Below, piece after piece: positions 2,343 to 46,135 of a stretch of 64,000 nucleotides of DNA (position 1 is its first letter; each line of letters starts with the position of its first letter). Source of the stretch: a virus. The stretch covers positions 1 to 64,000 of the IMG/VR virus record IMGVR_UViG_3300035698_035307; one strand, given 5' to 3'. Both the position numbers and the translations under genes were made by a program. The notes beneath the pieces are model-generated. The model saw nothing but the letters and a program-made list of their open reading frames with translations. It was not told the origin of the DNA and searched no databases.

Positions 2343-3158
2343 CTATGGGTTTTCTAAGTCATTTACTCTTTCTGATAATTCAGAAATTTCTTGTTGCATT
2401 GAATCATCTCGTGCATTCATCAAAACAATAATGTCATATAATGTACTACTCCTTTGGTCCATTAGATTACAACATTCTCTTACACAGTCCCAAACATATT
2501 GAATTAATTTAAACATAGTTTCAAGTACCTTTAAATTTTCACTACAACAGTCAGCTGTATCATTACTTCCACCGCAGCTGCATAATTTTTGATAGTATCT
2601 ATCTAATTCTGCTTGATACTGTACAGTTTGGTCTATACGTTCTATTAAGAATGCATTTCTTATTGCAACTTTACTTACAGCTTGACCTTTACTATTTATA
2701 ATAGGATTTTCAAACTCAATGAACTTTGTGATTTTAATATCACAGCATTCTTCAGCTGTTGCTGCAACTGAAGGTACCGCTACAGATACAAGAGATGTCG
2801 GTGCAGACTTTAGTTTTGGATTTAATGGTAAAACGCAAACTCCTAAAGTATAATTCCAAGTACCACCATTTCCTATACAATCCTTTAATTCTTGTGCAGA
2901 AGGTTTTGATATAGGTAAGATACATTCACATGCAGTATAATCCCAAAGACCACCTTGTGATTTACAAGCTTCTAATTCTTTTGCAGTTGGTAAACATGGT
3001 TCTTCTCCAGCTTCACAACATTTTTTTAATTCTTGAAGTAATTCATTTACTTCTTTTAATGACATATCAATTCTTGCTCTGCAATCACCAGCTGCGTCTT
3101 CAGTTTGTTTAACTAAGTCAGTATAATGTTGCAATAAAATTTCAGTTGGTGTTGCCAT
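2343..3158 (-). CDS. Cysteine-rich protein with duplicated GGxWxYT motif
   Basis: A 271-residue protein of unknown function, probably structural. The N-terminal 45 residues are helical. Two copies of a short module follow: residues 58-82 (TAKELEACKSQGGLWDYT, then CEC) and 88-111 (SAQELKDCIGNGGTWNYT, then a Cys). The pattern is A-x-E-L-x-x-C-x4-GG-x-W-x-Y-T-x3-C. Many other cysteines occur in pairs (KKCCEAGEEPC, EECC, CSCGG, DCCSE, ECC). Such cysteine pairing suggests metal binding or disulfides once outside the cell. The C-terminus (about 190-270) looks like coiled coil. It lies 2 bases from the next gene in the same transcript. Confidence 0.65.
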   Translation of the reverse strand: MATPTEILLQHYTDLVKQTEDAAGDCRARIDMSLKEVNELLQELKKCCEAGEEPCLPTAKELEACKSQGGLWDYTACECILPISKPSAQELKDCIGNGGTWNYTLGVCVLPLNPKLKSAPTSLVSVAVPSVAATAEECCDIKITKFIEFENPIINSKGQAVSKVAIRNAFLIERIDQTVQYQAELDRYYQKLCSCGGSNDTADCCSENLKVLETMFKLIQYVWDCVRECCNLMDQRSSTLYDIIVLMNARDDSMQQEISELSERVNDLENP

Positions 3159-3160
3159 GT

Positions 3161-3613
3161 TTATTGAAAGTTAAGTTCTGTATATTTAATGTTGCCAATG
3201 ATTACACAACCAAATGTGATTATTTCTTCTCTACCTGTTACAGCTGTATCTCTTTTAATTCTAATTGTTGCAAATAAGTCTCCACTTACAAGGTTAGTTG
3301 TAAATTCAGGTGGCAAATATAAACTAATAACACCCTTATCTGTCATTGAAGTTCCTGTTCCTGTTTGAATAATATCAATTGTTTCATCACCAGTTGTATC
3401 TGGCCATGTATATTGTAAGCTATAGTCTTTATCTAAACCATAAATTAACACTTCAATTTCATTTAGAGTATTCAAATCTAATGGATTCCCAGCCTTATCA
3501 AGTAATGTCAATGGTATATTTGCATTGTCACCTTGATATACATTTGGTATGCAAATTCTACTTACTAAGTAATTACCGCAACTACTTACGGTTGTTGTAC
3601 ATGATGCGCTCAT
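3161..3613 (-). CDS. Beta-sandwich structural protein, BppU-N-like
   Basis: A 150-residue protein with an N-terminal motif resembling the N-terminal domain of phage baseplate upper proteins: NVYQGDNANIPLTLLDKAGN and later EIEVLIYGL, with alternating hydrophobic residues typical of an all-beta fold. By that resemblance it may be a baseplate or tail-fibre adaptor. No catalytic motif is visible. It lies between the cysteine-rich protein and a membrane protein, each within 2 bases, so the three are probably cotranslated. The assignment rests on one motif and the predicted strand pattern. Confidence 0.5.
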   Translation of the reverse strand: MSASCTTTVSSCGNYLVSRICIPNVYQGDNANIPLTLLDKAGNPLDLNTLNEIEVLIYGLDKDYSLQYTWPDTTGDETIDIIQTGTGTSMTDKGVISLYLPPEFTTNLVSGDLFATIRIKRDTAVTGREEIITFGCVIIGNIKYTELNFQ

Positions 3614-3615
3614 TA

Positions 3616-4305
3616 TTATTTAGGATTTTTTTTCGTTGTCGTTATATAAGATTTCTTCTTCTTTCCTGTCTTTACAGTATCATCTACTGGTTTTTCCTTT
3701 TCAGCTGCCTTTGGCTGCTGTAGGCTAGCCTCAGGAGCTTTCTTTAATATAGGTTCAACTTTAACAACATTATCTTCTTCTTTTTCAATATGTTCTTCTT
3801 CCTTTTTAGGTTTCGTATCAAACATATCGTCAAATAAATCTGGTTTCTTTTTCTTCTCTTCTTTTTTCTTATCATCAGGCTTAATATAATCTACGAGAGA
3901 TTTAATATAACCTAAAGCAACTAATGGTAAAATTGCACCACTTAAAAGTGCTAATATTCTCTTCTGTGCTATTTCACTAAAATCAGTTAAGCCAAAGAGT
4001 TCGACAAATCCCACATAATCATGGGCTGAGACATACGTCGAATACATATTACCCATTGCTTGAAACAGAGTCAGTACTATGAATAATGTCCAAACTAATG
4101 GCTTGTTTGTTTTTTCTAAGACAGTAATCGAAGCTAAAGATGCTGCAGCCCCCATTTCAAATCCAATCGCTAAAGATAATGCTAAAGCAAATGTATTTGT
4201 CATTAAGAAAAAATCAACCACGTGAATTGTCGAAATTATAGAAACACCGAAATAAAGCAGTGTCATTATAAGTATCACAAACCAGTGGACAAATTTATTT
4301 TTCAT
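3616..4305 (-). CDS. Integral membrane protein, four helices and long charged tail
   Basis: A 229-residue membrane protein. Hydrophobic segments lie at about 6-26, 32-58, 70-90 and 117-138. The remaining 90 residues are strongly charged (runs such as KKKEEKKKKPDLFDD) and should lie in the cytoplasm. I do not recognise a family. Position upstream of the endolysin and next to another small membrane protein makes a lysis or membrane-remodelling role possible, but the long Lys/Glu tail is unusual for a holin. It overlaps the upstream gene by 11 bases, which suggests translational coupling. Confidence 0.65.
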   Translation of the reverse strand: MKNKFVHWFVILIMTLLYFGVSIISTIHVVDFFLMTNTFALALSLAIGFEMGAAASLASITVLEKTNKPLVWTLFIVLTLFQAMGNMYSTYVSAHDYVGFVELFGLTDFSEIAQKRILALLSGAILPLVALGYIKSLVDYIKPDDKKKEEKKKKPDLFDDMFDTKPKKEEEHIEKEEDNVVKVEPILKKAPEASLQQPKAAEKEKPVDDTVKTGKKKKSYITTTKKNPK

Positions 4306-7843: not shown

Positions 7844-8800
7844 TTATGTGCCTATAATAAAACGATTATTAGTATTTTGAATTGTCTTCATGTCTAAATC
7901 ACTAGCAAAGTTACCAAGTCTGTGCATGGTATCTTCTGACATTTCTTTATCGTAAAAATCGTTATAAATACTGTGATACAACTTAACCGAAGCATCATAC
8001 GGTAATCCTGGTTGTGAATTGATTTCGATAATATACATTGCACCATCTTCATCTTTCATTAAATCTAATGCATAAATATCCACTTTACTGAAATTCTCAC
8101 GAACCTCTTTTAATATTTCTTTAAATTCATCAGGTATGTAATCTAATACAACTTTAGTATAGCCAAATTTCATAGCTTCGTCAGTTCCACCAGTACCTTC
8201 TTTTGCTTTCTTATTAAGTGCTTCTCTTTTCATGAACAACAATGGGTGTTCTTTAAAGAGTATTAATCTAAATTCTTCATCTATTTTAATCTTCTCAGAG
8301 AATACTTCAAACTCGTCTTTGTTTTCTCTTAATTCTTCTTTTAACTTAAAACTTTGAATACCTATTCCAGAATGGTTATTATCTGGTTTAGCAATGATTG
8401 GAAAACTAAGATTCTCTAATGCATCTTCTTTAGAAAATACTGTTTTAGGAACAAATTTACTTTTCTCCATTGTCATATGAAAATTCCGTTTACTAGAGAC
8501 AGATTTAACATCGTCTGGCTTATTGTAAACATTCTCTAATGGTATTAACTTATTTTCGATTAAGTACCTGCTAATGTCATTATTGTAATTAATAACAGGG
8601 TATTTTTGATTTATCTGATATGATAATTTCTTTTCAGTAAGTGGTAGCATAAAATTCTCTGTAGCATACTCCTTATAAGAGATATCAGTCCCTTTATTAG
8701 TATTGTCATATACTAAAAGTGCTTTAAATAATTCACCAAACTCTTCTTTTATAAATTGAGTGTAGCCTTTTACTTTTACGAAATTACTTTTTATACCCAT
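7844..8800 (-). CDS. ATP-grasp ligase-like protein, possible capsid-targeted
   Basis: A 318-residue protein of the ATP-grasp fold (RimK/glutathione-synthetase type), which joins a carboxylate to an amine or thiol using ATP. Visible blocks are FPIIAKPDNNHSGIGIQSF (about 134-152, the lysine and glycine loop for ATP), the EFRLILF strand, and IYALDLMKD followed by YIIEINSQPGLP (about 245-272, the metal-binding D and E-x-N). The N-terminus VKVKGYTQFIKEEFGE resembles a capsid-targeting sequence with a site I-K-E before E. The substrate is unknown. The gene is directly upstream of the altered phosphoesterase and the ECF sigma gene in one operon. Confidence 0.7.
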   Translation of the reverse strand: MGIKSNFVKVKGYTQFIKEEFGELFKALLVYDNTNKGTDISYKEYATENFMLPLTEKKLSYQINQKYPVINYNNDISRYLIENKLIPLENVYNKPDDVKSVSSKRNFHMTMEKSKFVPKTVFSKEDALENLSFPIIAKPDNNHSGIGIQSFKLKEELRENKDEFEVFSEKIKIDEEFRLILFKEHPLLFMKREALNKKAKEGTGGTDEAMKFGYTKVVLDYIPDEFKEILKEVRENFSKVDIYALDLMKDEDGAMYIIEINSQPGLPYDASVKLYHSIYNDFYDKEMSEDTMHRLGNFASDLDMKTIQNTNNRFIIGT

Positions 8801-9197: not shown

Positions 9198-10085
9198 TTA
9201 TTTTTTAGTTTCAAGAAACACTCCTAATGCACCTTTATAATCTTCCTGAGTTCCACCTTCTTTAATCAGGTTTTCCATCGTCTTGAAAAATGTTTTCGTA
9301 GTTTTTGGAAATATAATTTCTTTGTACTCGCCATATTCGAATAATGGTTCTTTCAACTCAAAATGAGGTGAAGATACATTTTCTTCATTTTCAATCTTAT
9401 CTGCAGCATCGAAATGTCTTTCATAGAAATGAATATTGTCAGCTGAATGAAAATACGTACCGAGTTTTAATTCTGGATAGTATGGGAGCAACCATAATCT
9501 CATTTGTTGTAATACAATTGAAAAGAATGGGGCATCATAACTTAAACCAAAGAACATATCATTTGAACGTATTGTCATCTTCATGTTCAGAGTGTCTTCT
9601 CTTATAAAGAAATTCAGATACATCGTGCATACAAAATCTTTGTTACCAACATATTGAAATTTAGGTTGATTTAAGAACGCTATCGCTTGACGAGTATTCT
9701 TATCACTTCTTAGTGAGTTCAAGCACCAATAAAGTTGGTCACCGAATAATAAGTCACCATAATTCGAATTAATTTCACCACCTTCATCTGTTAGGTTTCC
9801 CCAGAACTTAGAAAAATTTGAAATGTAATCTACTGTACGTTCTTTTTTCAAATACCAGGCAAGTTCACCTGCTAAGTATTTCCAATTAAATGGACGTTCT
9901 TTAAAATCAAGTAATACCTTCGTAGGATTAAGTGGCATCGTATGCATATACAATTCCTTCACCTTTTGCCCCCTCGGCGCACTCTCATAACCATCATTCT
10001 TTATCTTACTTATAAGACTCTGGAACTCATGATTAATATCTTGCTTATGTTCTTTCTCGCTTAAATAGTTTGGTATTTTTGTCAT
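9198..10085 (-). CDS. Thymidylate-synthase-fold enzyme, probable dCMP hydroxymethylase
   Basis: A 295-residue thymidylate synthase/dCMP hydroxymethylase homolog. Recognised parts: GELAWYL (73-79), NYGDLLFG (108-115), Arg132 in TRQAIAF, the nucleophile Cys153 in DFVCTMYL, the phosphate-binding RSND at 173-176, GLSYDAPF (180-187) and FHSADNIHFYERH (212-224). At the position where thymidylate synthase has the pyrimidine-contacting Asn, this protein has Asp184. In T4 dCMP hydroxymethylase the same Asn-to-Asp change gives dCMP specificity. It would therefore make 5-hydroxymethyl-dCMP from dCMP and methylene-THF. It lies 5 bases after the kinase gene and is last in the block. Confidence 0.8.
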   Translation of the reverse strand: MTKIPNYLSEKEHKQDINHEFQSLISKIKNDGYESAPRGQKVKELYMHTMPLNPTKVLLDFKERPFNWKYLAGELAWYLKKERTVDYISNFSKFWGNLTDEGGEINSNYGDLLFGDQLYWCLNSLRSDKNTRQAIAFLNQPKFQYVGNKDFVCTMYLNFFIREDTLNMKMTIRSNDMFFGLSYDAPFFSIVLQQMRLWLLPYYPELKLGTYFHSADNIHFYERHFDAADKIENEENVSSPHFELKEPLFEYGEYKEIIFPKTTKTFFKTMENLIKEGGTQEDYKGALGVFLETKK

Positions 10086-10090
10086 TGCTC

Positions 10091-10951
10091 TTAATTATTT
10101 TTCAAAATTAGTTCCTTAAGTTCGGATTCAAACTTATAGAGTTTTAACAATGTCTCGTTCCTTTGTTTCATTAATTCTTTGAAGTTTTCAGTAGGAAGTG
10201 TACTCTTCAAATATAATGGAAATGTATTAACACATAGATAGTTCAGGTAATCAGTAACTAAGTCCTTCCAGATGATTCCTTTAATATTACTATGTTCTTT
10301 GTAAGTTTCGAAGAACTTCTCAATTAATGCAAAACTAAAATCTAATTCTTCAATGTCAAGCATATCTGATACGAATGACATGATTTCTATACTGATAAAA
10401 TCAAATGCTGCAAAATCAAAATCAATCAAAGTATACTTATCACCGTCCCATAAAATATTATGCTTACGAAAATCTCGATGTAATGCAATTTTAAGTTGTT
10501 TCTCATTGATACCTTTGATATCTTTTTGAATCTTCTTTCTGATACTTAAATCTCGTTTCAATGCGACTTTATTATTTACAGCTTCTTCCCAAGCCATTAA
10601 ATCATCGTACATTAATTCTTTATGAGGTAAGTCAATTGTATCACCTTCTTTCCAACAATGATTATGAATCTTAGCCATGTTCTCAGCTATAATTGAAACA
10701 GAAGTTACACCTAAGTTCCATTCACATTCTTTAACAACCTCATATCGACATTCAATTATCTCAGGGTCTGTATTAGCAGGATGGCCATAAATTCCTTTAT
10801 TAATTTCGAATCCATTTAGATTGTCAATGTTGTAAAATAATCTGGTTTGAAATATACCAACTCTGTAATCATATTTGCTCTTAGGCATATACTTAATAAA
10901 GACATCATCTCGTATTTCAGTACTGCTAGTGTTACCGCCGCTTTTATTCAT
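10091..10951 (-). CDS. APH/choline-kinase-family phosphotransferase
   Basis: A 286-residue small-molecule kinase of the aminoglycoside phosphotransferase/choline kinase fold. The catalytic loop is LHRDFRKHNILW with Asp160 and Asn165, and the metal-binding segment is LIDFDFAAF with Asp177 and Asp179. The N-lobe is hard to align and may be reduced. Substrates of the family are hydroxylated small molecules. Its place between two hydroxymethylase-like genes (8-base overlap upstream, 5-base gap downstream) suggests it phosphorylates a hydroxymethyl or hydroxylated nucleotide intermediate. That is inference, and an aminoglycoside-resistance or choline-kinase role is not excluded. Confidence 0.75.
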   Translation of the reverse strand: MNKSGGNTSSTEIRDDVFIKYMPKSKYDYRVGIFQTRLFYNIDNLNGFEINKGIYGHPANTDPEIIECRYEVVKECEWNLGVTSVSIIAENMAKIHNHCWKEGDTIDLPHKELMYDDLMAWEEAVNNKVALKRDLSIRKKIQKDIKGINEKQLKIALHRDFRKHNILWDGDKYTLIDFDFAAFDFISIEIMSFVSDMLDIEELDFSFALIEKFFETYKEHSNIKGIIWKDLVTDYLNYLCVNTFPLYLKSTLPTENFKELMKQRNETLLKLYKFESELKELILKNN

Positions 10952-11915
10952 CTTTGTTGTAAATTTTTAGAAAGTCGTGTTCAATTGCATTGTCATTTGC
11001 TTTTGCCATTGTGGCCGTATAAAGAATTAAAGCCCACTTATAAAAGTATTCTGTTTTAAAATACGTTCTGTCAGGTTTATATAAATCTTTGTAAGTAGTT
11101 ATCGTACCACCATCGATATCCTCATGTTTACCAGCTTTCATAAATTCATCGACATAATGATATAAGATTCCATTTTCTTGAACCCATTCCTTATGTGTTA
11201 ATTCAAATGGCATTGGATGATACGTATGATTAGGGTCGAAGTCTTGTGACCAGGTAGGTTTACCACTTTTGTCACAATAATAATGCATACTAACTGTCTT
11301 GTATAGAAAGTGTCCCATTGTTAATTCAGGGTAAAATTCTGTAAGCCAACCTGTCATCATTTCTTGAAGTGTTGTAAATAAAATCACATCGTTTGCCCAT
11401 CCCATTGAAAGTGCAGTTCCTCTTGTTTCAAGAGTCATATGTAATTTATTATCTCGTATGATAAAGTGACAGTATATTAAACAAGGGTAGTGAACTTTGG
11501 GTCTTCTACTACCAAAAGATATTACTGCCTTTCTACTGTTCTTATCATCTCTGAGTACGTTTCTTATTTTGAGTAGTGACCATCTACTATTTCCTTGGCG
11601 ATTTTCATTGCCAAAGAACATGATATTGTCTTCAAACCCCATTGTTTTTTTGACCATTTCCCTTGAATGCATAACCCTCGGTTGGTTTTCATTAAAGATG
11701 TCAAAAAGTTCTTGATAAATGAAAGGCATATTTAAGCCTTTGATAGGTATGATTTTATCACGAGGATTTTTAATTAGTACAGAAGCATTCATAACTTCTT
11801 TAGTCCATTCTTTCCTGGCTTCTACTAATTCACCCTGGTCATCAATTAATTGTGCGAAGTACTCATATGCATCTCTTGCATTTTGTACTTCTGCATACTT
11901 CATATTATAATCCAT
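10944..11915 (-). CDS. Second, divergent thymidylate-synthase-fold enzyme
   Basis: A 323-residue thymidylate synthase superfamily member, clearly different from its neighbour. Cys145 in VHYPCLIYCHF is the likely nucleophile. ETRGTALSMGWANDVILF (163-180) aligns with the RSxD...GLPFN block but has Ala168 for the Asp and Asp176 at the base-specifying Asn position, so a cytosine-type substrate is suggested. The final HxY block is YKTVSMHYY (205-213). The N-terminal 110 residues are longer than in thymidylate synthase. It may act on an already modified dCMP or add another one-carbon unit. It is first of the three-gene block and overlaps the kinase by 8 bases. Confidence 0.72.
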   Translation of the reverse strand: MDYNMKYAEVQNARDAYEYFAQLIDDQGELVEARKEWTKEVMNASVLIKNPRDKIIPIKGLNMPFIYQELFDIFNENQPRVMHSREMVKKTMGFEDNIMFFGNENRQGNSRWSLLKIRNVLRDDKNSRKAVISFGSRRPKVHYPCLIYCHFIIRDNKLHMTLETRGTALSMGWANDVILFTTLQEMMTGWLTEFYPELTMGHFLYKTVSMHYYCDKSGKPTWSQDFDPNHTYHPMPFELTHKEWVQENGILYHYVDEFMKAGKHEDIDGGTITTYKDLYKPDRTYFKTEYFYKWALILYTATMAKANDNAIEHDFLKIYNKDE

Positions 11916-12908: not shown

Positions 12909-13244
12909 TTATCTGTCATCTCCCGAACCTCTTTCAGTTCCTCTGCTAACTCTACCTGCTAATTTTTCATTGTTTAAGTTTGCAATATCTTCAAGCGTAT
13001 AACCTAATTTACCGGCAAGTACTGAAAGATACCAAAGAGTATCGCCAAGTTCATTGCCAATTGCTTTCTTTGTAGTAGGTGTCAATTCGCCTTTGTCATC
13101 TCTGAAAAGTTTCTTGACCTTTCCTGCTACCTCTCCTGCCTCCTCAGACAGTCCAATTGATAAATATGTAAATGGATGGATATGTTCCCCTCCTGTAAAG
13201 AATGCATTCTCTAATGCACTCTCCTGATAATCATTCATCGTCAT
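12909..13244 (-). CDS. MazG-like nucleotide pyrophosphohydrolase
   Basis: A 111-residue all-alpha NTP pyrophosphohydrolase. The metal-binding E-E-x-x-E is at 34-38 (SEEAGEVAGKV) and the E-x-x-D at 65-68 (NELGDTLWYL). It hydrolyses NTP or dNTP to NMP and pyrophosphate. T4 uses a related all-alpha enzyme (dCTPase, gp56) to remove dCTP and supply dCMP for hydroxymethylation, so this could feed the TS-like enzymes at 9198-11915. MazG homologs in phages are also linked to (p)ppGpp depletion. Its start overlaps the next gene upstream by 14 bases. Confidence 0.82.
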   Translation of the reverse strand: MTMNDYQESALENAFFTGGEHIHPFTYLSIGLSEEAGEVAGKVKKLFRDDKGELTPTTKKAIGNELGDTLWYLSVLAGKLGYTLEDIANLNNEKLAGRVSRGTERGSGDDR

Positions 13245-13617
13245 CTTCTATTCCTTTTTTAATTGTCATTAATACTGTATGTTTATCGATAGACATCTTT
13301 GTAATAATCTTATAAAGTGCTCTCAGTTCCTGTTCATTTGTTAATGTACAGACTGTTGTTTCGATAGGATTTACTCCTTGTTGGATAGTTATAAAGAATC
13401 CATTATAAGCAATGTACTCACCATTTTCACCGCGGACATAATTGTATCTAAATCTATAAACCTTTTGGCTCATAACAAAATGCAATCCCCCTAAACCATA
13501 TTTCTTGAATATGGCTAGGGTTAATTCTGTTTGGGGGTGATTCTGAGCTTCATGTTTTTGCTCAGTTATTATGCTACGACTTTTTCTTTTAATGTATTCG
13601 TCTCTTGCTTTACTCAT
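13231..13617 (-). CDS. Hypothetical protein between MazG and 2H phosphoesterase genes
   Basis: A 128-residue protein of unknown function. The N-terminus is basic (ARDEYIKRKSRSIITEQK). The central part has alternating strands (KVYRFRYNYVRGENGEYIAY) and the C-terminus is acidic. It overlaps both neighbours (8 bases with the 2H phosphoesterase gene, 14 with mazG), so the three are translated from one message. Confidence 0.6.
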   Translation of the reverse strand: MSKARDEYIKRKSRSIITEQKHEAQNHPQTELTLAIFKKYGLGGLHFVMSQKVYRFRYNYVRGENGEYIAYNGFFITIQQGVNPIETTVCTLTNEQELRALYKIITKMSIDKHTVLMTIKKGIEDDDE

Positions 13618-14194
13618 TTTTAGCTTTTTTAAATGGCCACTTTAATTTGCTGCCATCAGTCTTACTGTAAACTATCTTATCAGGTTTGCTTACTACAGCT
13701 TCCTTAAGCTTCTTTGCGTATTTCTTACCAGTTCCTGGTTTTAAGTATGCAACTGTACAGTGAGCATGATAGTCCGGGTAATCCGTTGTATGAGGGAACT
13801 CAGCTAATGTTTCATTCATTTTGTTTAAATCTTTTGAATTAACATCAAATTTCAGAACATCGAAGTCATCATTTTCAAACAACGAAAGTCTTTGCATTGA
13901 TACGATTGGGTCACTAAATTCATGTGCCATCATTGCCTTTTTGATATCATCATCATCATTGTCTTCGTGTAAACCATATAAAACAGTTACATGAGGTTCA
14001 TCTTCTCTACCATAATCTCCGTCCTTTTCATAAACATCTTCGTCATCAATTGATTCTTGTAAGTCAGCCCAATTCTTTTCGTCAACGTTTAAATATAACA
14101 TAACACAACCGTAATCATGTGCAGTACCTGATTTCTCTTCTACTTTATCATCTTCGATAAATTGTTCAAATGTTTTTACATGTAATCTTTCCAT
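13610..14194 (-). CDS. 2H phosphoesterase with capsid-targeting N-terminus
   Basis: A 194-residue 2H-family protein (RNA 2',3'-cyclic phosphodiesterase / 2'-5' RNA ligase-like fold). The two catalytic motifs are PHVTVLYGL with His68 and Thr70, and HAHCTVAYLKPG with His145 and Thr147. The N-terminus VKTFEQFIEDDKVEE closely matches the T4 capsid-targeting sequence, so the enzyme is probably packed in the head and injected. Family members open 2',3'-cyclic phosphates on RNA ends. The T4 anti-CBASS protein Acb1 uses the same two-HxT chemistry to destroy cyclic oligonucleotide signals. Either role fits an enzyme delivered at infection. It lies 12 bases after the phosphoribosyltransferase gene. Confidence 0.8.
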   Translation of the reverse strand: MERLHVKTFEQFIEDDKVEEKSGTAHDYGCVMLYLNVDEKNWADLQESIDDEDVYEKDGDYGREDEPHVTVLYGLHEDNDDDDIKKAMMAHEFSDPIVSMQRLSLFENDDFDVLKFDVNSKDLNKMNETLAEFPHTTDYPDYHAHCTVAYLKPGTGKKYAKKLKEAVVSKPDKIVYSKTDGSKLKWPFKKAKNE

Positions 14195-14206: not shown

Positions 14207-14752
14207 TTATTCGTAATATCTATAAAATGAGTTAACAACTTTTCTTTTTGTTTTAGAACCATCATATATTACTGCAACAGATTTTACTTTAGAACCGTTA
14301 GCTATAAAAAAGCTTTCAATTTTCCTTGCAGTACCACCTGAGAAGTAAGAATCATCTACAAATACAAATGATTTCTTTTTGACATCAAAATCTTCAGGCT
14401 TATAAGATTCAACACCTTTACCGAGTGTTAGCATCTTTCCATTAAATGTAACGAATCCTTTGCATTTAAAAGCCTTCTTCTTATAAAGCTTCATTAATGT
14501 ATCACCAAATCCTCCAGATGACGCAATATATTCATTTTCAAATGGTTTTAAAAGTGCTATAATCATTTTCTTATTTAATACATTTTTGATTTGGTCATCA
14601 AGTGCATCAAAAAATGGTTTACCACCTTTATGTTTTACTAACAGTTTATCTATAAGTTCTTCTAAGTTCTTGTAAATAGAATCGGGCGGATTAAGGCCGC
14701 CCGGTTTTTCTGTTATAAATTCTTCGAATGTTTTTAATTGTATCTTTTCCAC
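14207..14752 (-). CDS. Phosphoribosyltransferase-fold protein with capsid-targeting N-terminus
   Basis: A 181-residue type I phosphoribosyltransferase-like protein. The PRPP-binding loop is FVFVDDSYFSGGTARKI (129-144), with the usual two acidic residues and GGTA turn. The first strand and flexible loop are less clear. The N-terminus IQLKTFEEFITEKPGG (4-19) is one of the best matches to the T4 capsid-targeting sequence, with a site I-T-E before K. It is probably a packaged protein. The natural substrate (base or nucleotide salvage, or a binding role) cannot be read from the sequence. The start is GTG at 14752, overlapping the TAG stop of the vertex gene by one base. Confidence 0.75.
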   Translation of the reverse strand: MEKIQLKTFEEFITEKPGGLNPPDSIYKNLEELIDKLLVKHKGGKPFFDALDDQIKNVLNKKMIIALLKPFENEYIASSGGFGDTLMKLYKKKAFKCKGFVTFNGKMLTLGKGVESYKPEDFDVKKKSFVFVDDSYFSGGTARKIESFFIANGSKVKSVAVIYDGSKTKRKVVNSFYRYYE

Positions 14753-15861
14753 TAAATTAAGCTTTTTTCAAATTTAAAATATATCTTTGTGTAATATATA
14801 TCAGCTTTTTCTTTTTGGCCAACAAATACGCTTGCATATCTTAATCTGATTGCTATTTTAGGTGCCATAGTCCCTTCAGCTATTGTCGATAATGATTGAG
14901 CTCCCATATATGGAAGGTACATTCCAGGTTCATTATTCTTTGGCATTCTTGAGACTGTAATCGAATTATCATCCCATCTTTTCATTGGGTCAACGAAGAT
15001 TGTGATTCCATTAAAAGTACCTGCTATATAAGGTTCTCCACCTGTAACCATTGATACTTTAGCTTCAGAAGGTAATACAAACCCTTCTATGTCTTGTAGA
15101 ATTGTACCAATCTGACCATTAACTACAGCTACATTACCTGCGCCTCTTCTTGTTGTTATCGCGAGCATATTACATGCACTTAATATAGCAGTGATGATTC
15201 TACGATGAGCTTCTTGAATTGTCATATCTGATGTAATGACATAAGCTTTTTGGTAAACACCCTTGAAATATTTAGGTAACCATTTTTCTAAGAAAGATAA
15301 ATTTTTGTGAATCCACTTAGTTCTTTTCTCTTTCTTTAAATCTTTATCAGTCCATGACTTACGATAAGATATTTCACCATAGTTGTCTATTTTAGCTAAG
15401 ACATTTTTCCAAATGGCCATTTTAGACTCATTAATAAGAACACCTTCAGTTTGCGTAACTGCATCTATACCTATTGATTTTAGATGTTCAATCATTTCTC
15501 TTGTGATAGTTGCAGAAACTTGGTAAGTTTGTTGTTCTATTGCTTGATTAAATAACTGTAAGCCGATTGTCTTCATTGGCACTGATTCACCCCTTGTAAG
15601 AGGTTGTTCAAAACCAGTAACAAAATCTGTTTCTTTTTCATCAGATGTTGGTTCCATTTCAACAAAATCTAAATAAGACATTAAACCTATAGGTAATTCA
15701 ACCTTTTGAACATTTGTAAAATATTTCAGAGCATCATCTTCAAATATCTTCTGATTCATTACAGCGATGAAAGCATCTGTCTTCGCTTGCTGAACAGGGT
15801 CCACTTCCTGCATCTGTAGATGTGGGGGTAAATTGTTTAAATTAAAATTTTCCATATACAT
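14752..15861 (-). CDS. gp24: Capsid vertex protein, gp24-like paralog of the major capsid protein
   Basis: A 369-residue protein of the T4 gp23/gp24 capsid family (HK97 fold). It shares LGLMSYLDFV-type, TITREMIEHLKSIGIDAV and STIAEGTMAPKIAIRLRYA blocks with the major capsid protein encoded at 44441. It lacks much of the N-terminal and insertion regions of that protein (369 versus 564 residues), as expected for a pentamer-forming vertex protein. The first residues MYMENFN offer two ATG codons (15861 and 15855). It lies 30 kb from the capsid gene and directly upstream of two capsid-targeted enzymes, in an apparent late unit. Confidence 0.82.
   Translation of the reverse strand: MYMENFNLNNLPPHLQMQEVDPVQQAKTDAFIAVMNQKIFEDDALKYFTNVQKVELPIGLMSYLDFVEMEPTSDEKETDFVTGFEQPLTRGESVPMKTIGLQLFNQAIEQQTYQVSATITREMIEHLKSIGIDAVTQTEGVLINESKMAIWKNVLAKIDNYGEISYRKSWTDKDLKKEKRTKWIHKNLSFLEKWLPKYFKGVYQKAYVITSDMTIQEAHRRIITAILSACNMLAITTRRGAGNVAVVNGQIGTILQDIEGFVLPSEAKVSMVTGGEPYIAGTFNGITIFVDPMKRWDDNSITVSRMPKNNEPGMYLPYMGAQSLSTIAEGTMAPKIAIRLRYASVFVGQKEKADIYYTKIYFKFEKSLI
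14795..14802 (-). promoter_or_regulatory. Possible internal late promoter
   Basis: GATATATATTACAC on the minus strand, 43 bases before the GTG of the phosphoribosyltransferase gene and inside the end of the vertex gene. It may be chance in coding sequence. Confidence 0.25.
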
Positions 15862-15983: not shown

Positions 15984-16172
15984 TTACTCCGTATGAGCTT
16001 TTTTGACAATCATTACATCTTCTGGTAATGGATTGTCTTTAAATTTTGCTAGAAAAGCTTTCAAAGTTTTTTTAGCTTTACTAGGCGATAGCTTACCTAC
16101 AGGAACAATGAAAGTTCTTCTAACTTCTCCTTGTCCTGTTTTACACCAATAGTCTTTCTCTAATCTTGTCAT
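15984..16172 (-). CDS. Small basic hypothetical protein
   Basis: A 62-residue protein. A strand-rich start (RRTFIVPVGKL) is followed by a basic helix (SPSKAKKTLKAFLAKFKD) and a C-terminal strand. Family unknown. Its ATG overlaps the amidinotransferase stop by 4 bases, and a terminator follows, so it is the last gene of the operon that begins at 19471. Confidence 0.6.
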   Translation of the reverse strand: MTRLEKDYWCKTGQGEVRRTFIVPVGKLSPSKAKKTLKAFLAKFKDNPLPEDVMIVKKAHTE

Positions 16173-17020
16173 ACTAATTCTCTTTTTAACGGTAATGTCA
16201 TGCAGGCAAACCCTCCTGCCATTTTTCTAATTTCACTCATTTTACAAGTATGAATTTTCATACCTTGATGACATTCTAACATTGCTTTAACTTGTGGGCA
16301 ATCATCAGCCATTATAATTTCCCTTGGACCAATCACTAAAATATTAGTGGCATAGTTCTTACTGACCTCGTCAAACTCAGACAGTGTAATCACATTCTTA
16401 TATCCTAATGTTTCTTGACTCAGTTCTGACCTTATGAGTAACGTATCAGCATCCAGAATCATATGAGCACCTAATATATGTTGAGGTATTCCTTCAGGTA
16501 AAGCTTCGACTGTTTTAAAATTAATATGAGGATATAATTGTTGTAATGTTTCTGCTACCTTTGGAGAAGTTCTATTACCTACAGATAAAATTACTTCATC
16601 TGGTTTAGTTCTTAACATATCAGCTCCTTCAAATGTAATATCTTCACTGAACTCAATTAATTTCCCAGCGTATTGTTCTTTTCTTAAATACTTAATAAGA
16701 TTAAGTTCTTCACCTTTTCTTACATCATATCTTAAATTCCCAAGTATAATTGAATCATCTAAAACTGCAGCTACATCTCTCATATAGATTGCATTAGCGT
16801 GATATAAATAATCAGGAGTATGCATATCAGTATGTACTTCAATACCTAATTTGTTTAAAAGGTCCCATAATGCTGAAACTTCTTCTAATACTACGTCATA
16901 GTTTGGTTGAAATTCATACATCGCCTCATCAGCTGTCATCATTTCTAGTTCACCTCTTCGAGGTATATGTAAGAAAACTGATTGTAGTTTTCCATATTCT
17001 GAGTTATATCCTACTTCCAT
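16169..17020 (-). CDS. Amidinotransferase / arginine deiminase-family enzyme
   Basis: A 283-residue protein of the guanidino-modifying superfamily (arginine deiminase, dimethylargininase, amidinotransferase). Landmarks are IYMRDVAAV with Asp82, TFEGADML with Glu131 and Asp134, the histidine block QHILGAHMILDAD (His186) and the nucleophile Cys273 in MAGGFACMTLPLKRE. All catalytic positions appear intact. The family hydrolyses or transfers the amidino group of arginine-like substrates. A phage copy could consume arginine or put amidino groups on another molecule. It overlaps the deoxyribosyltransferase-like gene by one base. Confidence 0.8.
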   Translation of the reverse strand: MEVGYNSEYGKLQSVFLHIPRRGELEMMTADEAMYEFQPNYDVVLEEVSALWDLLNKLGIEVHTDMHTPDYLYHANAIYMRDVAAVLDDSIILGNLRYDVRKGEELNLIKYLRKEQYAGKLIEFSEDITFEGADMLRTKPDEVILSVGNRTSPKVAETLQQLYPHINFKTVEALPEGIPQHILGAHMILDADTLLIRSELSQETLGYKNVITLSEFDEVSKNYATNILVIGPREIIMADDCPQVKAMLECHQGMKIHTCKMSEIRKMAGGFACMTLPLKRELV

Positions 17021-17481
17021 TATGAGTATTTTATTAATGTTATTAATTCCTCAAATTCTTCAACTTGTGGTATATTATATTTACTGCAAACTATGTCAAT
17101 GTTTCCTTTTCTCCAGAAACCTTCTGGGCAATAAATAACTAGCTTACCTGATTTAGCGTATAAGCCAAACTCTAACAGTGAGATAGGTGCTATACTATCT
17201 TTTGTCAAAACCATTATAATTTTATCAGCTAATTCTAAATGTTCTAATTCCCAATTAACTTGTTCATTAAATTTTGGATTATCAATTGATTGTTCCCATG
17301 TATCATCCCATTCATCTCTACGTGGATTGTAAAGTATAACAGGAAAGTCTTTTACAGCTTCTGTAATCTTTAATTGCCAATCTTCGGCTTTACCCATATC
17401 AATTGACCCTGCAAGAAAGATACTTTTATATCCTTCTACTTTTGCAGCATATCCGGGTGGTTTTATTACAATTGTTTTCAT
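17020..17481 (-). CDS. Nucleoside 2-deoxyribosyltransferase-like protein
   Basis: A 153-residue protein of the nucleoside deoxyribosyltransferase / DUF4406-like fold. IFLAGSIDMGKAEDWQ (21-36) is the N-terminal glycine-rich strand-loop, YNPRRDEWDD (51-60) follows, QVNWELEHLELADKIIM (75-90) forms the central helix, and SLLEFGLYA (101-109) carries the likely nucleophile Glu104. The family exchanges bases on deoxyribose or hydrolyses nucleotides such as hmdUMP/dCMP derivatives (RCL-type). It fits a role in altering the nucleotide pool. It is two bases after an unknown 81-residue gene. Confidence 0.75.
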   Translation of the reverse strand: MKTIVIKPPGYAAKVEGYKSIFLAGSIDMGKAEDWQLKITEAVKDFPVILYNPRRDEWDDTWEQSIDNPKFNEQVNWELEHLELADKIIMVLTKDSIAPISLLEFGLYAKSGKLVIYCPEGFWRKGNIDIVCSKYNIPQVEEFEELITLIKYS

Positions 17482-17482
17482 T

Positions 17483-17728
17483 TTAAAATCTTGCTGCGCC
17501 TTGTACAGGCAGTTCTTCAGGTGTTCCTTTACTATTTCTAACTATTTTGAAGCATTTCTTGAATGTAACTTTGTCCATATTTACAAGATTGCTAGGGTGT
17601 ATAGTATGAATGAGAATGTCATTAGTTTCTTTAGCTATACGAAACATTACATAATTATTTAGCTTTAATCCAGGCAGTCGATATCTGCTGGGGAGTATCT
17701 TTTCATATGTAGCATTATAGTATCTCAT
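17483..17728 (-). CDS. Hypothetical protein in the sulfotransferase operon
   Basis: An 81-residue protein with no recognised family. The middle has strand pattern NNYVMFRIAKETNDILIHTI. It is locked between the sulfotransferase and deoxyribosyltransferase-like genes with 1-base gaps, so it is certainly in the same operon and may be an accessory subunit. No motif points to a function. Confidence 0.55.
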   Translation of the reverse strand: MRYYNATYEKILPSRYRLPGLKLNNYVMFRIAKETNDILIHTIHPSNLVNMDKVTFKKCFKIVRNSKGTPEELPVQGAARF

Positions 17729-17729
17729 A

Positions 17730-18956
17730 CTAAATCCATTTATCTGTGTTCATTGAATATCCTAATCTATACATCATATCTTGAACATGTGGTTCTTTTG
17801 CTAACCAATTCATCTCATGTTCTCTTTTCTTCCACCTGTATAAACCTGGCTCATCTGTTGCCATCGTTACTGGCATAACTCCAATTTCTACGTGAGGTAT
17901 TCCAATATAGTCACATATATCATCTGCTATTTCTTGAGGACTTATTAAGAAGTCTTCGAACTTAACTCTCATTGTATGAACCTTACTTTCAAGAATTGAA
18001 TTATGTGCAGTGTACCATTGATTTAAACAAACTTGTTCAAGTGTAGAATTTGTATATTGTTTCCAATTAGCAGGTAAGTCAAATTTCCACCATTTCTTTC
18101 CAAAAGCTTTAACATCACTATAACCTTTAATATTGAGTTCTAAATCTTGTGATTCCATATTATGTGCAAAGAAACCATTATCAGATAACCAACCGTCCAT
18201 TAAACCGTTTGTTGTTTGTGCAAATCCTCTACTTAAGTGGATATACTTTATCTCTGCATTTGGGAATAGGTTCTCGAATAATCCAATTCTATAACAGTCT
18301 TGAGGTGTCTTAAATAAAAGCGGATGTGTAGCTGCGTCTTCTTCAGTAAAACTTCTTTTCTTAGAAGGTATTACGAAAGGTGGTTCCTCAATCTTAATCT
18401 GTTCAGTAAATAATTGTTTGTCTTTTGCAAATAAATCATAATAACCTCTCTTATCTGGCATGAAACTATTAATGAATCGCTTAGTAGATTCTTCATAGTT
18501 ATCACTGTTACCGTAAGCTTCGTGAACTCTCTGTTCTATTAATTCATGAAGTTCTGGCTTCATTTCAGGATATTGATACAGCATTCTTTTCTGCCAGTCA
18601 ATTGTAGTTCTTCTTACATCAATGAATGGAATATTAATACCCATATCTGAAAACATAATATCAAGAAGCTTTTGTTTATCATTAACTTCAGTAAATCCGT
18701 CAGACTCTGTCCAAGGAAATGCATTCTTTGTTAAGATGTAATAAGGTTCTTCTTCACCAGAAAGATAAGCAATATCATCACTCTTAGACAATATTGATTT
18801 CATTAATGTTGAACCAGAACGAGAAGCTGTAAGGATTACTACAATCTTTTTTACTTTCTCATTTAGATTCCCAGTTGGCTTTATAAAACCTTCTCCAAAT
18901 AATTTATCATTGACATTGTCAATAGCGTTCTCTACTCTTTCTGTGTATTTGTTCAT
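17730..18956 (-). CDS. Sulfotransferase-family protein
   Basis: A 408-residue PAPS-dependent sulfotransferase-like protein. The 5'-phosphosulfate-binding loop is ILTASRSGSTLMKSIL (36-51). The second PAPS contact is expected around IKYIHLSRGFAQT (about 236-248), with the LSRG replacing the usual R...S. The C-terminal part VRFEDFLISPQEIADDICDYIGI-like block (MRVKFEDFLISPQ) is typical of the family. It would transfer sulfate to a hydroxyl or amine of an unknown acceptor. It overlaps the P-loop kinase gene by 4 bases, and in this operon the acceptor might be a nucleotide or a surface glycan. Confidence 0.8.
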   Translation of the reverse strand: MNKYTERVENAIDNVNDKLFGEGFIKPTGNLNEKVKKIVVILTASRSGSTLMKSILSKSDDIAYLSGEEEPYYILTKNAFPWTESDGFTEVNDKQKLLDIMFSDMGINIPFIDVRRTTIDWQKRMLYQYPEMKPELHELIEQRVHEAYGNSDNYEESTKRFINSFMPDKRGYYDLFAKDKQLFTEQIKIEEPPFVIPSKKRSFTEEDAATHPLLFKTPQDCYRIGLFENLFPNAEIKYIHLSRGFAQTTNGLMDGWLSDNGFFAHNMESQDLELNIKGYSDVKAFGKKWWKFDLPANWKQYTNSTLEQVCLNQWYTAHNSILESKVHTMRVKFEDFLISPQEIADDICDYIGIPHVEIGVMPVTMATDEPGLYRWKKREHEMNWLAKEPHVQDMMYRLGYSMNTDKWI

Positions 18957-19471
18957 GCTTTCATTCTTTCGTTTACAAAATCGATTACCTGTTGGATATG
19001 TTCGTCTTCGATATGAAAATTGTCTGGATTAATTACAACAGGACATGTTGCAAAACTAGATAATACCTTCATATACTTATCCACATGTGTTTTAAAGTCT
19101 TTACCTTCTTTACTACTCCGCTTGGCTGCTAGTGCTGGCCAATTTTCTTCAGTAGTTGCTATAAATACTGCGCATTTATGAATGTGACTTTTAGATACTC
19201 GTAAAATTTCTTTACGATAACCTTCGTCTTCAGAATATGCAGCATCTGTTAACCCTCTATCCCAGAGAATTACTCTTTTATAATCATTTATCTGGTCTAA
19301 TCTTTCGATATTATTATGCATCCAGAAATTATAATCTTGCCATCTCGATTGCATTCCTATATTAATAGCACCTGCCCCCTTGAATCTTATCCATTCAGGT
19401 TTTTGTTCTAATAATTTATCAATGAGATATGTTTTGCCAACTGTTGACAAACCTTCTAAAAAAACTATCAT
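18953..19471 (-). CDS. P-loop nucleoside/nucleotide kinase-like protein
   Basis: A 172-residue P-loop kinase of the deoxynucleoside kinase/thymidylate kinase type. The Walker A is LEGLSTVGKTYLID (5-18), and the DRG motif is LWDRGLTDAAYS (about 69-80), typical of nucleoside kinases. A lid segment with AAKRSSKEGKD follows. Several phage base-hypermodification pathways use P-loop kinases acting on hydroxymethyl pyrimidines, so a role on modified nucleotides is possible. A terminator separates it from the upstream gene, so it is first of the operon running to 15984. Confidence 0.75.
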   Translation of the reverse strand: MIVFLEGLSTVGKTYLIDKLLEQKPEWIRFKGAGAINIGMQSRWQDYNFWMHNNIERLDQINDYKRVILWDRGLTDAAYSEDEGYRKEILRVSKSHIHKCAVFIATTEENWPALAAKRSSKEGKDFKTHVDKYMKVLSSFATCPVVINPDNFHIEDEHIQQVIDFVNERMKA

Positions 19472-20589: not shown

Positions 20590-21108
20590 TTACAGAAATT
20601 CAGCCAATTCACTGGATTTTATCCTTAAATCAAAATCAGTAAAGTTGTCAAAGTCTTTTCTGTCAGCTCCCATACGTCTTTCCAGACTGTCACCTGGCAT
20701 AGTTCTTTGTGCAAGTCTTTCTCTTCTTATTGCTTCTGGAATGTCCATAAAGATAATAAAAGAATTTTTTCTATCTTCTGGTAATAATTTGCTAATTCCA
20801 GATGGCGTCATAATAAAGGTATCACACATCGACATTTGTTCTTTAGCTGTTCCATAATACCAGCCGTTAAATTCTACGTATTCATACCAAAAATCTTCTT
20901 TGATTCTCTTTTGAAACTCTTTAACACTAAGAAAATAATAATCAATTCCTTCAACTTCACCTTCCCTTGCAGGGCGAGTAGTATAAGATACAGCATGGCT
21001 AAATCCTTTCTTTACAAATGCGTCTTTTAAATAGTCTTTTCCACCGGCTGCATGGCCGCAAAATATCATACGTGCTCTTGGAAATAAATAAGTTTGCTTT
21101 CCTGTCAT
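20590..21108 (-). CDS. Guanylate-kinase-like dNMP kinase
   Basis: A 172-residue guanylate-kinase-fold enzyme. Walker A is FCGHAAGGKDYLKDAF (16-31), the nucleotide-binding segment is VSYTTRPAREGEVEGIDYYF (about 40-59), and GWYYGTAKEQ (about 83-92) completes the GMP-type site. The lid arginines are in RRERLAQRTMPGDSLERR. It phosphorylates a (d)NMP to the diphosphate. T4 carries a dNMP kinase (gp1) that accepts hydroxymethyl-dCMP, and this may be the functional equivalent. The P-loop has AAGGKD where GSGKST is usual. It overlaps the KTSC gene by one base. Confidence 0.85.
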   Translation of the reverse strand: MTGKQTYLFPRARMIFCGHAAGGKDYLKDAFVKKGFSHAVSYTTRPAREGEVEGIDYYFLSVKEFQKRIKEDFWYEYVEFNGWYYGTAKEQMSMCDTFIMTPSGISKLLPEDRKNSFIIFMDIPEAIRRERLAQRTMPGDSLERRMGADRKDFDNFTDFDLRIKSSELAEFL

Positions 21109-44440: not shown

Positions 44441-46135
44441 TTAAATCATTTGGAAAGTGCTGAAGTCAACACCGAATGTGTAGTAATATAATTGAGGGTG
44501 GAAACCTGCTTCAACTAATGCATATCTAGACTTGATAGCAATTTTAGGAGCCATTGTTCCTTCTGCAATTGTAGATACTGATTCTGCCATTAAATAAGGC
44601 ATGAATACAAGACCTGGTGAATTACCGTCACCTTTTCTTCCAACTAATACTCTGTTGTCATTCCAACCCATATATGGGTCAACGTATACTGTTACGCCTG
44701 CTACTTGTCCTACTGGATAAAGTGAACCACCTTGTTGATTAAACGTGTTGGCCATTGCGTAAGGTACGAAACCTGAGATATCTTGTAAAGCTGTTGCAAC
44801 TTGTCCGTTAGTTACTGCGAAGTTTGCTGCTCCTCTTCTACCTCTGATTGATACAAGGTTACTTGCTGCTAAAATTCTAGAAAGAATTTGTCTTTGAAGT
44901 GTTCCTTTGTTATCACCTGCTGTTGGTGTTGATGCTGGTACATTACCAGTAACTACTGCATTTCCTTCGTTGTCGTTTCCTAATGCGAAAGTTGTAGTAC
45001 CACCTGTTGCGATGTATAATGAAAGCTGAGTGCTATCATAAGCTTCAATCTGGCTATTATTAGTGTTACCTAATGCGAATAATCTGTCTAAGATATTCTT
45101 GTTAATTGATTGAGTAAGTTCGTTAGTAAGAATTGCTTCTACTTGAGCTACTGCGTCAATACCGAATTGTTTTAAATCTTGGATTTGCTCTCTAGTAACT
45201 GCTGCTGCTACTTGGAAAGTTTTAGCTTCAACTGACTTGTTGAATAAACTAAGACCCATAATGTTATCTTGTTGTGATTCACCTTCGCCTCTTGAATAAG
45301 GAGAGTTAGAATTAAACGTAGAACCAGCAAGTCCTGATAATCCGCTACCTGAGAATCCAGTAATATGGTCTTCAAGTGCTTTTACTAATTCAGCTGCACC
45401 GTCTATTTCTAGAACATCAGTTGATGCATTCTGTGTAGTATGGTTAGAGAATAAGCTATTACCTGCTGTAATTGCCATACCTAATGTGTCGTTAGGAGTT
45501 GCAAGACCTTTAGCATAAGTAGTTGCAGCAACACCTGTTGAAGTTTCTACTTTAAAGATTGGATAGTTATCAATTCTAGAGTTACCTACAAAGGTTAATC
45601 TGAATGTTGCAGTTGTTGAACCAGCTGCTATTTGTGTGTATGCTACATCACCTTCTGCTAATGCCGCTGCTCCAGTTGATGCTGTTGCTGGGAATTTAAC
45701 TAATAATGGTGCTTCAGTTCCATCAGTTCCACCTGTTACAGCGCCGATAGTACCACCTGCATATACAAAGTCTAAATAAGTCATCATTCCAAGAGGACCA
45801 CTCATTGGAATAACAGGTACTAAATCAAGTCCAATAGTTTGTGCTGCTACTTGCAATGCAAGTGGAAGTAAACTATAAGCTTTGTCACCAGAACCAGTTG
45901 TTTGGCTAGTGAATGCATTTTGTGTACCTGGGTCACCTGGAAGTGTTACTGGTCCCATACCTGGAACGTTCATACCTGGATTAAGGTGTACTAAGTTGTT
46001 CGCATCTTCGTAAAGATTGTGAAAGTGAGCGTATTTCGACATCCAACCAAGTTTATTAGCGTCTTCAACGCCAGTTGCTTCCTTGATAATAGGAGTCCAT
46101 GTTGCTCTAACTTCTGCTTCGTTTATAAGTTTCAT
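44441..46135 (-). CDS. gp23: Major capsid protein, gp23-like
   Basis: A 564-residue HK97-fold capsid protein of the T4 gp23 family. Recognisable blocks are GPLGMMTYLDFVYAGG (about 112-127), the F-x-V-A-A-A-V-T-R-E-Q-I-x-D-L-K-x-F-G-I-D-A-V helix (about 313-337), and STIAEGTMAPKIAIKSRYA near the C-terminus. T4 gp23 has 521 residues and loses 65 N-terminal residues to the protease. Here IIKEATG near residue 20 or a later site may be the cut. A Thr/Gly-rich insertion (about 125-260) could form a surface domain. It lies 48 bases after the protease gene. Confidence 0.92.
   Translation of the reverse strand: MKLINEAEVRATWTPIIKEATGVEDANKLGWMSKYAHFHNLYEDANNLVHLNPGMNVPGMGPVTLPGDPGTQNAFTSQTTGSGDKAYSLLPLALQVAAQTIGLDLVPVIPMSGPLGMMTYLDFVYAGGTIGAVTGGTDGTEAPLLVKFPATASTGAAALAEGDVAYTQIAAGSTTATFRLTFVGNSRIDNYPIFKVETSTGVAATTYAKGLATPNDTLGMAITAGNSLFSNHTTQNASTDVLEIDGAAELVKALEDHITGFSGSGLSGLAGSTFNSNSPYSRGEGESQQDNIMGLSLFNKSVEAKTFQVAAAVTREQIQDLKQFGIDAVAQVEAILTNELTQSINKNILDRLFALGNTNNSQIEAYDSTQLSLYIATGGTTTFALGNDNEGNAVVTGNVPASTPTAGDNKGTLQRQILSRILAASNLVSIRGRRGAANFAVTNGQVATALQDISGFVPYAMANTFNQQGGSLYPVGQVAGVTVYVDPYMGWNDNRVLVGRKGDGNSPGLVFMPYLMAESVSTIAEGTMAPKIAIKSRYALVEAGFHPQLYYYTFGVDFSTFQMI

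Follow-up and report, generated by a model that had tools for sequence, protein, structure and literature searches.

The window analysed here covers positions 1 to 64,000 of the virus record IMGVR_UViG_3300035698_035307 (151,520 bases in all) and contains two genes for proteins with the fold of thymidylate synthase (TS), P0001 and P0003, which enclose the gene of a predicted kinase of the APH clan, P0002. All three are intact open reading frames (ORFs):

9198-10085, minus strand: P0001, 295 residues, predicted TS-fold enzyme
10091-10951, minus strand: P0002, 286 residues, predicted APH-clan kinase
10944-11915, minus strand: P0003, 323 residues, predicted second TS-fold protein

The P0002 and P0003 genes overlap by 8 bases and those of P0001 and P0002 are separated by 5 bases, exactly as given in the original prediction, which was made from the sequence alone and had read this spacing as evidence of a single transcription unit. 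We rejected the inference of an operon, because 149 of the 154 predicted genes of the full record share one strand and the spacing is -30 to +10 bases in 49% of the neighbouring same-strand gene pairs; a succession of two such junctions is nothing unusual in this genome. The trio may be co-transcribed, as may most of the genome. The terminase is nearest to that of the huge uncultured phage LR756500 (47%), followed by those of PAU and Tenacibaculum phages, and from this protein and the T4-type genes it carries, the record is assigned to a phage of the T4 superfamily, whose host probably belongs to the Bacteroidota. No tRNA genes were found in the window.

P0001 matches PF00303 with E=8e-21, and its top match in the PDB is the deoxycytidine monophosphate (dCMP) hydroxymethylase of phage T4, gp42 (1b49, E=5e-18), to which it is about 29% identical. 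Its Cys153 and Asp184 align with Cys146 and Asn177 of E. coli ThyA, and it also contains Thr154 and the motifs GEINSNYG (103-110) and RSND (173-176). In a table of 17 functional positions, given in E. coli ThyA numbering, P0001 carries the gp42-type residue set, including Thr147, Asp177 and the folate and proton-relay residues Trp80, Tyr94 and Asp169, which are the same letters as in T4 gp42. All 80 relatives fetched from IMG/VR retain Cys followed by Thr or Ser as well as Asp at the Asn177 position, and several relatives of P0001 possess a separate canonical TS, which argues against this family being the thymidylate supplier. In LR756500, the closest named relative, the hydroxymethylase ortholog is encoded 1.4 kb away from a gene for a T4 beta-glucosyltransferase (PF09198, E=7e-23; L007 10834 to 12250). 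Asp177 and residue 147 of phage TS proteins have been reported to track modified cytosine (PMC8670742). Judged from its sequence, P0001 is assigned with high confidence as a folate-dependent dCMP 5-hydroxymethylase of the T4 gp42 kind. No canonical TS was detected in the record, which may be incomplete, and two Asp177 TS-fold genes without a canonical TS are unusual among the records examined.

The second TS-fold protein, P0003, matches phrog_5131 with E=3e-15 and the hydroxymethylase profile with E=3.5e-23 (hhalign E=4e-17), and these matches identify it as a true paralog of P0001. Its Cys145 and Asp176 align with Cys146 and Asn177 of ThyA, and it retains Arg21, Glu58, Arg126, Cys146, Arg166, Asp177, His207 and Tyr209, which represent the nucleotide site and the nucleophile (including Cys145, Asp176, His211 and Tyr213 in its own numbering). 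The folate and proton-relay residues are not retained: Trp80 is changed to Glu, Tyr94 to Trp or a gap and Asp169 to Ala, and Ser167 is changed to Gly. The catalytic residues named in the original prediction (Cys153/Asp184 of P0001, Cys145/Asp176 of P0003, and H-R-D...N and D-F-D of P0002) were all found as described, and from the first two pairs it had likened both TS-like proteins to T4 dCMP hydroxymethylase. This likeness stands for P0001, with its match to 1b49 and its full residue set. It fails for P0003: with the Trp80/Tyr94/Asp169 signature lost, this protein ought not to be named as another dCMP hydroxymethylase; the absence of these folate-site residues, which P0001 and T4 gp42 share, had been overlooked. 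P0003 also has a unique C-terminal extension (residues 233-323). The core is a confident TS fold in the AlphaFold2 (AF2) model; confidence is low for the C-terminal 90 residues and for the Trp80/Tyr94 loop, which leaves the exact partner of Tyr94 uncertain. Searches by tblastn in phages, IMG/VR scans and motif scans yielded no close relatives of P0003 and only distant TS relatives.

A loss of folate residues in a TS-fold protein with Asp177 has occurred before. ORF048c of phage RB69 (RB69_048) is near-identical (E=5e-162) to the PDB entries 9iqc, a riboflavin-dependent monooxygenase with dCMP and flavin adenine dinucleotide (FAD), and 9iqu, the phage dCMP hydroxylase AfhB. It has Asp177 and Cys146, and Trp80 is changed to Ala and Asp169 to Asn, which means that Asp at position 177 marks cytosine specificity and not hydroxymethylation. 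A paper of 2026 describes the Mosigvirus enzyme, a member of the TS superfamily, as a 5-hydroxy-dCMP synthase and places the arabinose directly on C5 (PMC13390438). Because P0003 shares the TS fold, Asp177 and the loss of Trp80 and Asp169 with the RB69 enzyme, and because a Foldseek search with its model returned 9iqc/9iqu with E=2e-11, it might itself be an AfhB/RB69-type dCMP 5-hydroxylase that depends on flavin, in a phage that combines the chemistries of 5-hydroxymethylcytosine (5-hmC) and 5-hydroxycytosine and uses the kinase for sugar activation. We regard this as rather unlikely, since the CMP hydroxymethylase MilA ranks above these structures (E=2.5e-12), the identity with them is very low (16-17%), P0003 also lacks Tyr94 and Gly95, which RB69_048 keeps, and its position adjacent to RB69_048 in the tree has a support of 0.000.

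The same losses of catalytic and folate residues would be expected if P0003 were a non-catalytic pseudo-enzyme that heterodimerises with P0001 or regulates it. The active sites of TS are completed by Arg126/127 of the partner subunit; P0003 keeps its Arg128/Lys129, and the genes of P0001 and P0003 are adjacent within the trio. Such a role is a real possibility, but we consider it doubtful, because Cys145 and the whole nucleotide site (Asp176, His211, Tyr213) are kept, which is unexpected after a loss of catalysis, and because the ORF is intact and has an ordinary codon usage.

The kinase P0002 shows the catalytic residues Lys20, H158-R-D-x4-N165 and D177-F-D and matches the APH family PF01636 with E=3e-7 and 30.8 bits, above the curated cut-off of 23.2, which together with the HxDxxxxN and D motifs places it in the APH clan. 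The best profile match is CotS (TIGR02906, E=4e-8), AmgK is matched with E=1e-3, and the nearest described relatives are CotS, choline kinase and AmgK. From these matches, P0002 is predicted to be an intact small-molecule kinase of the choline-kinase/CotS/AmgK-like type. Its AF2 single-sequence model was unusable, with a predicted local distance difference test score (pLDDT) of 37. We found no relatives of P0002 in phages by tblastn or by IMG/VR, GTDB and motif scans, apart from two viral proteins that have only the catalytic motif in common with it, and none in 80 loci around relatives of P0001. The arrangement P0003-P0002-P0001 was likewise not found elsewhere in the tblastn, IMG/VR or motif scans. 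A P-loop kinase gene precedes the hydroxymethylase gene in 19 of 74 relatives of P0001 (18 detected by hidden Markov model, plus L016), and it is possible that P0002 replaces this kinase here. We also tried P0002 as a base kinase of thymidine hypermodification, which would be a P-loop enzyme acting on 5-hydroxymethyluracil in DNA, and rejected it, because P0002 belongs to the APH clan without a match to any P-loop family and its TS partner has Asp instead of Asn.

An APH-fold kinase in this place had been thought to be without precedent, which did not hold up. In phages RB69 and Thanatos, a protein with a phosphotransferase domain (ORF53_52c and TH1_060, respectively) accompanies a TS-fold enzyme that modifies dCMP (PMC6024577, PMC12838424, PMC13390438). 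ORF53_52c and TH1_060 are proteins of 561 residues that have an N-terminal nucleotidyltransferase- or glycosyltransferase-like part and are encoded near the gene of the TS-fold enzyme; the C-terminal part of TH1_060 is annotated as a phosphotransferase, and TH1_060 is essential for the propagation of Thanatos (PMC6024577, PMC12838424). ORF052c contains the APH-clan motif HGDPNFSN...IDPRG, with weak Pfam matches, and its homologs occur in 369 phage records, those of ORF048c in 367, with a nearly equal host make-up: Escherichia accounts for 173 records in either set and Acinetobacter for 57. The kinase-nucleotidyltransferase of the RB69/Thanatos type probably serves sugar activation. By sequence comparison, P0002 belongs to another APH subfamily: a small BLAST gave no match between it and ORF052c, hhalign aligned only the catalytic loop (probability 5%), and P0002 is neither fused to nor, according to family scans of the flanking genes, located beside a recognised sugar nucleotidyltransferase.

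Further precedents come from other loci. Of the relatives of P0001, G001 carries a nucleotidyltransferase-APH fusion, homologous to the RB69/Thanatos type, about 7-8 kb from the hydroxymethylase gene. Genes for a HAD protein, an APH-type kinase, a nucleotidyltransferase and a glycosyltransferase stand in a row in G002, G023 and G027. At 2507-4073 of the human-gut phage scaffold MT837767 (L010), a gene that fuses a capsule-phosphatase-like HAD protein with an APH-like kinase precedes one for a cytidylyltransferase-like protein, and an Asp177 TS is encoded nearby. As a separate observation, genes for C5 DNA-methyltransferase-like proteins cluster with glycosyltransferase, nucleotidyltransferase and APH kinase genes at L097 8839-10071 (G001), L098 4401-5615 (G002), L099 8240-9502 and L100 8227-9489. 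These proteins have the motif CPCAGLS and an altered S-adenosylmethionine motif I region (PF00145, E=1e-14 for L097), and they are possibly non-methylating modifiers of cytosine.

Taken together, we interpret the trio as a cytosine-modification locus of a T4-superfamily phage, with P0001 as the hydroxymethylase, P0003 as a second, non-folate enzyme and P0002 as a precursor kinase, and we assign this reading a probability of about 50%. It preserves from the original prediction of a base-modification pathway the gp42-like enzyme and the genes for the nucleotide pool, and abandons the novelty of the kinase placement. As supported by its sequence, P0001 would make 5-hydroxymethyl-dCMP, which nucleotide kinases would raise to the triphosphate before the polymerase puts it into DNA. 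The MazG-like and nucleotide kinase genes predicted to lie nearby are indeed present (second and fourth of the following features), and their products may adjust the nucleotide pool:

7844-8800, minus strand: ATP-grasp ligase (D-Ala ligase/RimK-like), downstream of the trio (PF07478, E=4e-8)
12909-13244, minus strand: MazG-like nucleotide pyrophosphohydrolase, possible pool enzyme for dCTP or other deoxynucleoside triphosphates (PF03819, E=1e-7; phrog_229, E=2e-29)
18953-19471, minus strand: P-loop, thymidylate-kinase-like protein (phrog_761, E=2e-5)
20590-21108, minus strand: guanylate-kinase-fold deoxynucleoside monophosphate kinase, possible hydroxymethyl-dCMP kinase (PF00625, E=2e-17; phrog_1815, E=3e-32)

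A homolog of the last kinase is encoded near the hydroxymethylase in LR756500 (L007 3553-4242). From the residues kept and lost, we infer that P0003 is a duplicated TS-fold enzyme which binds a cytosine nucleotide, keeps its Cys nucleophile and has given up the use of folate; it would most likely act on dCMP or hydroxymethyl-dCMP in a second reaction that needs no folate, comparable to the FAD-bound RB69-like dCMP hydroxylase. P0002 would most likely phosphorylate the precursor, a sugar or an amino-alcohol, of a group destined for the modified cytosine, and would thereby take the part of the APH-type domain in RB69 ORF53_52c and TH1_060 while coming from another APH subfamily; action on the nucleotide itself appears less likely. 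The ATP-grasp ligase may also belong to the modification set. We further observed a homolog of this ligase two genes away from the hydroxymethylase in the relative L017 (7285-8223, 31% identity).

Several points weigh against this interpretation. Apart from a weak MptE-like protein, no glycosyltransferase was found near the trio, nor was a sugar nucleotidyltransferase, and a T4 beta-glucosyltransferase occurs nowhere in the record, so that the donor pathway is incomplete here. No close relatives of P0002 or P0003 were found, and hence none that could show conservation of the trio. The tree gives no support to the placement of P0003 with RB69_048, and P0002 shares only its catalytic loop with the ORF052c family. 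Finally, the support that comes from the absence of APH kinases in all 50 unrelated viral contigs is suggestive only, because these control contigs are on average shorter than the test set.

Some of these points would fit a P0002 unrelated to DNA bases, i.e. a stand-alone APH/CotS-type kinase for an antibiotic, a lipid head-group or a protein, which lies here by chance. CotS is its best profile match, a nucleotidyltransferase or glycosyltransferase was not found beside it, no relative of it was found in the 80 loci around P0001 relatives, its codon usage is slightly under average, and the phage has many accessory genes. This, too, is a real possibility that we nevertheless hold to be unlikely, since the gene of P0002 lies precisely between those of two TS-fold proteins and since APH kinases, missing from the unrelated contigs, are recurrent in cytosine-modifying phages.

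The retained and missing residues of P0003 would also fit a relay on free nucleotides, in which P0001 makes hydroxymethyl-dCMP, P0002 phosphorylates its 5-CH2OH group and P0003 exchanges the phosphate for a new group before incorporation. The Cys of P0003 would add to C6, and expulsion of the phosphate would produce the exocyclic methylene that is the usual intermediate of TS, which a new nucleophile would then attack. P0003 has the Cys, the phosphate-binding Arg residues and Asp177 and lacks the folate site, as such an enzyme would need; the three genes adjoin, and two Asp177 TS proteins without a canonical TS in the record are unusual. Thymidine hypermodification is known to proceed in this order, by a kinase step and then a substitution. 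However, the known hydroxymethyl-base kinases are P-loop proteins acting on DNA, and we know of no TS-fold enzyme that performs such a substitution. That the genes adjoin counts for little in this genome, and the searches yielded no relatives by which conservation could be shown. We judge this relay to be very improbable. If it is true, P0003 would, to our knowledge, be the first TS-fold enzyme to carry out a substitution, and P0002 the first kinase of bases with an APH fold.

Elsewhere in the record, we found genes for a dCMP-type deaminase, a dUTPase and a ribonucleotide reductase. The phage is rich in accessory genes: arginine-deiminase-like, nucleoside 2-deoxyribosyltransferase-like, sulfotransferase and thymidylate-kinase-like genes form an accessory cluster in one run at 16169-19471 of the window. 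At 13610-14194, an ORF codes for a 2H-phosphoesterase-like protein, to which the matches of a region scan to 2_5_RNA_ligase2 and to Acb1, which acts against the cyclic-oligonucleotide-based antiphage signalling system (E about 1e-7 to 1e-6), were assigned through its H-x-T/H-C-T motifs. In addition to the Gp23-type capsid protein at 44441-46135, a second one (E=3e-21), perhaps a vertex protein, is encoded at 14752-15861. Moreover, a 1122-residue protein (G000 71312-74680; L002 8313-11681) has a cytidylyltransferase-like domain at 433-569 (E=4e-10).

Cytosine modifications of phages defeat restriction and Cas enzymes, and the enzymes that make them are useful reagents. P0003 is a candidate for a second TS-fold lineage without folate that has kept its dCMP specificity, and could be used to test whether the switch away from folate seen in dCMP hydroxylases of the RB69 type arose more than once. 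From the comparison with RB69 it also follows that a hydroxymethylase should not be assumed from Asp177 alone. Should P0002 act on a nucleotide, the APH fold would gain an activity that is new for it.

Among the known systems, the 5-hmC carbamoyltransferase loci identified by MetaGPA, as in Acinetobacter phage MD-2021a, also have an Asp177 TS together with the gene of a decorating enzyme and a deaminase nearby, but the decoration is a carbamoyl transfer and no APH kinase was found there (PMC8670742). The best structural match of the P0003 core is the CMP hydroxymethylase MilA (5jnh). It has Asp at the base-specifying position like P0003, but is a folate enzyme of mildiomycin synthesis. P0001 differs from T4 gp42 in its identity of only about 29% and in the missing T4 beta-glucosyltransferase of this record, and shares with it the TS fold, Cys-Thr, Asp at the Asn177 position, INSNYG, Asp169 and Trp80. 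Compared to RB69 ORF048c (9iqc, 9iqu, AfhB), P0003 is without Tyr94/Gly95 and has Gly173 and the 90-residue C-terminal extension, whereas both have the TS fold with Asp177 and Cys retained and Trp80 and Asp169 lost. P0002 has HRD...DFD instead of the HGD...DPRG of RB69 ORF53_52c and TH1_060 and no fused or adjoining nucleotidyltransferase; what it has in common with these proteins and the homolog of L097 (G001) is the APH-clan kinase and, nearby, the gene of a TS-fold enzyme that modifies dCMP. Because of the precedents in RB69/Thanatos, G001, G002, G023, G027 and MT837767, an APH kinase beside an Asp177 TS enzyme is of a known kind, and what is unusual here is probably the odd TS relative and its pairing with the kinase.

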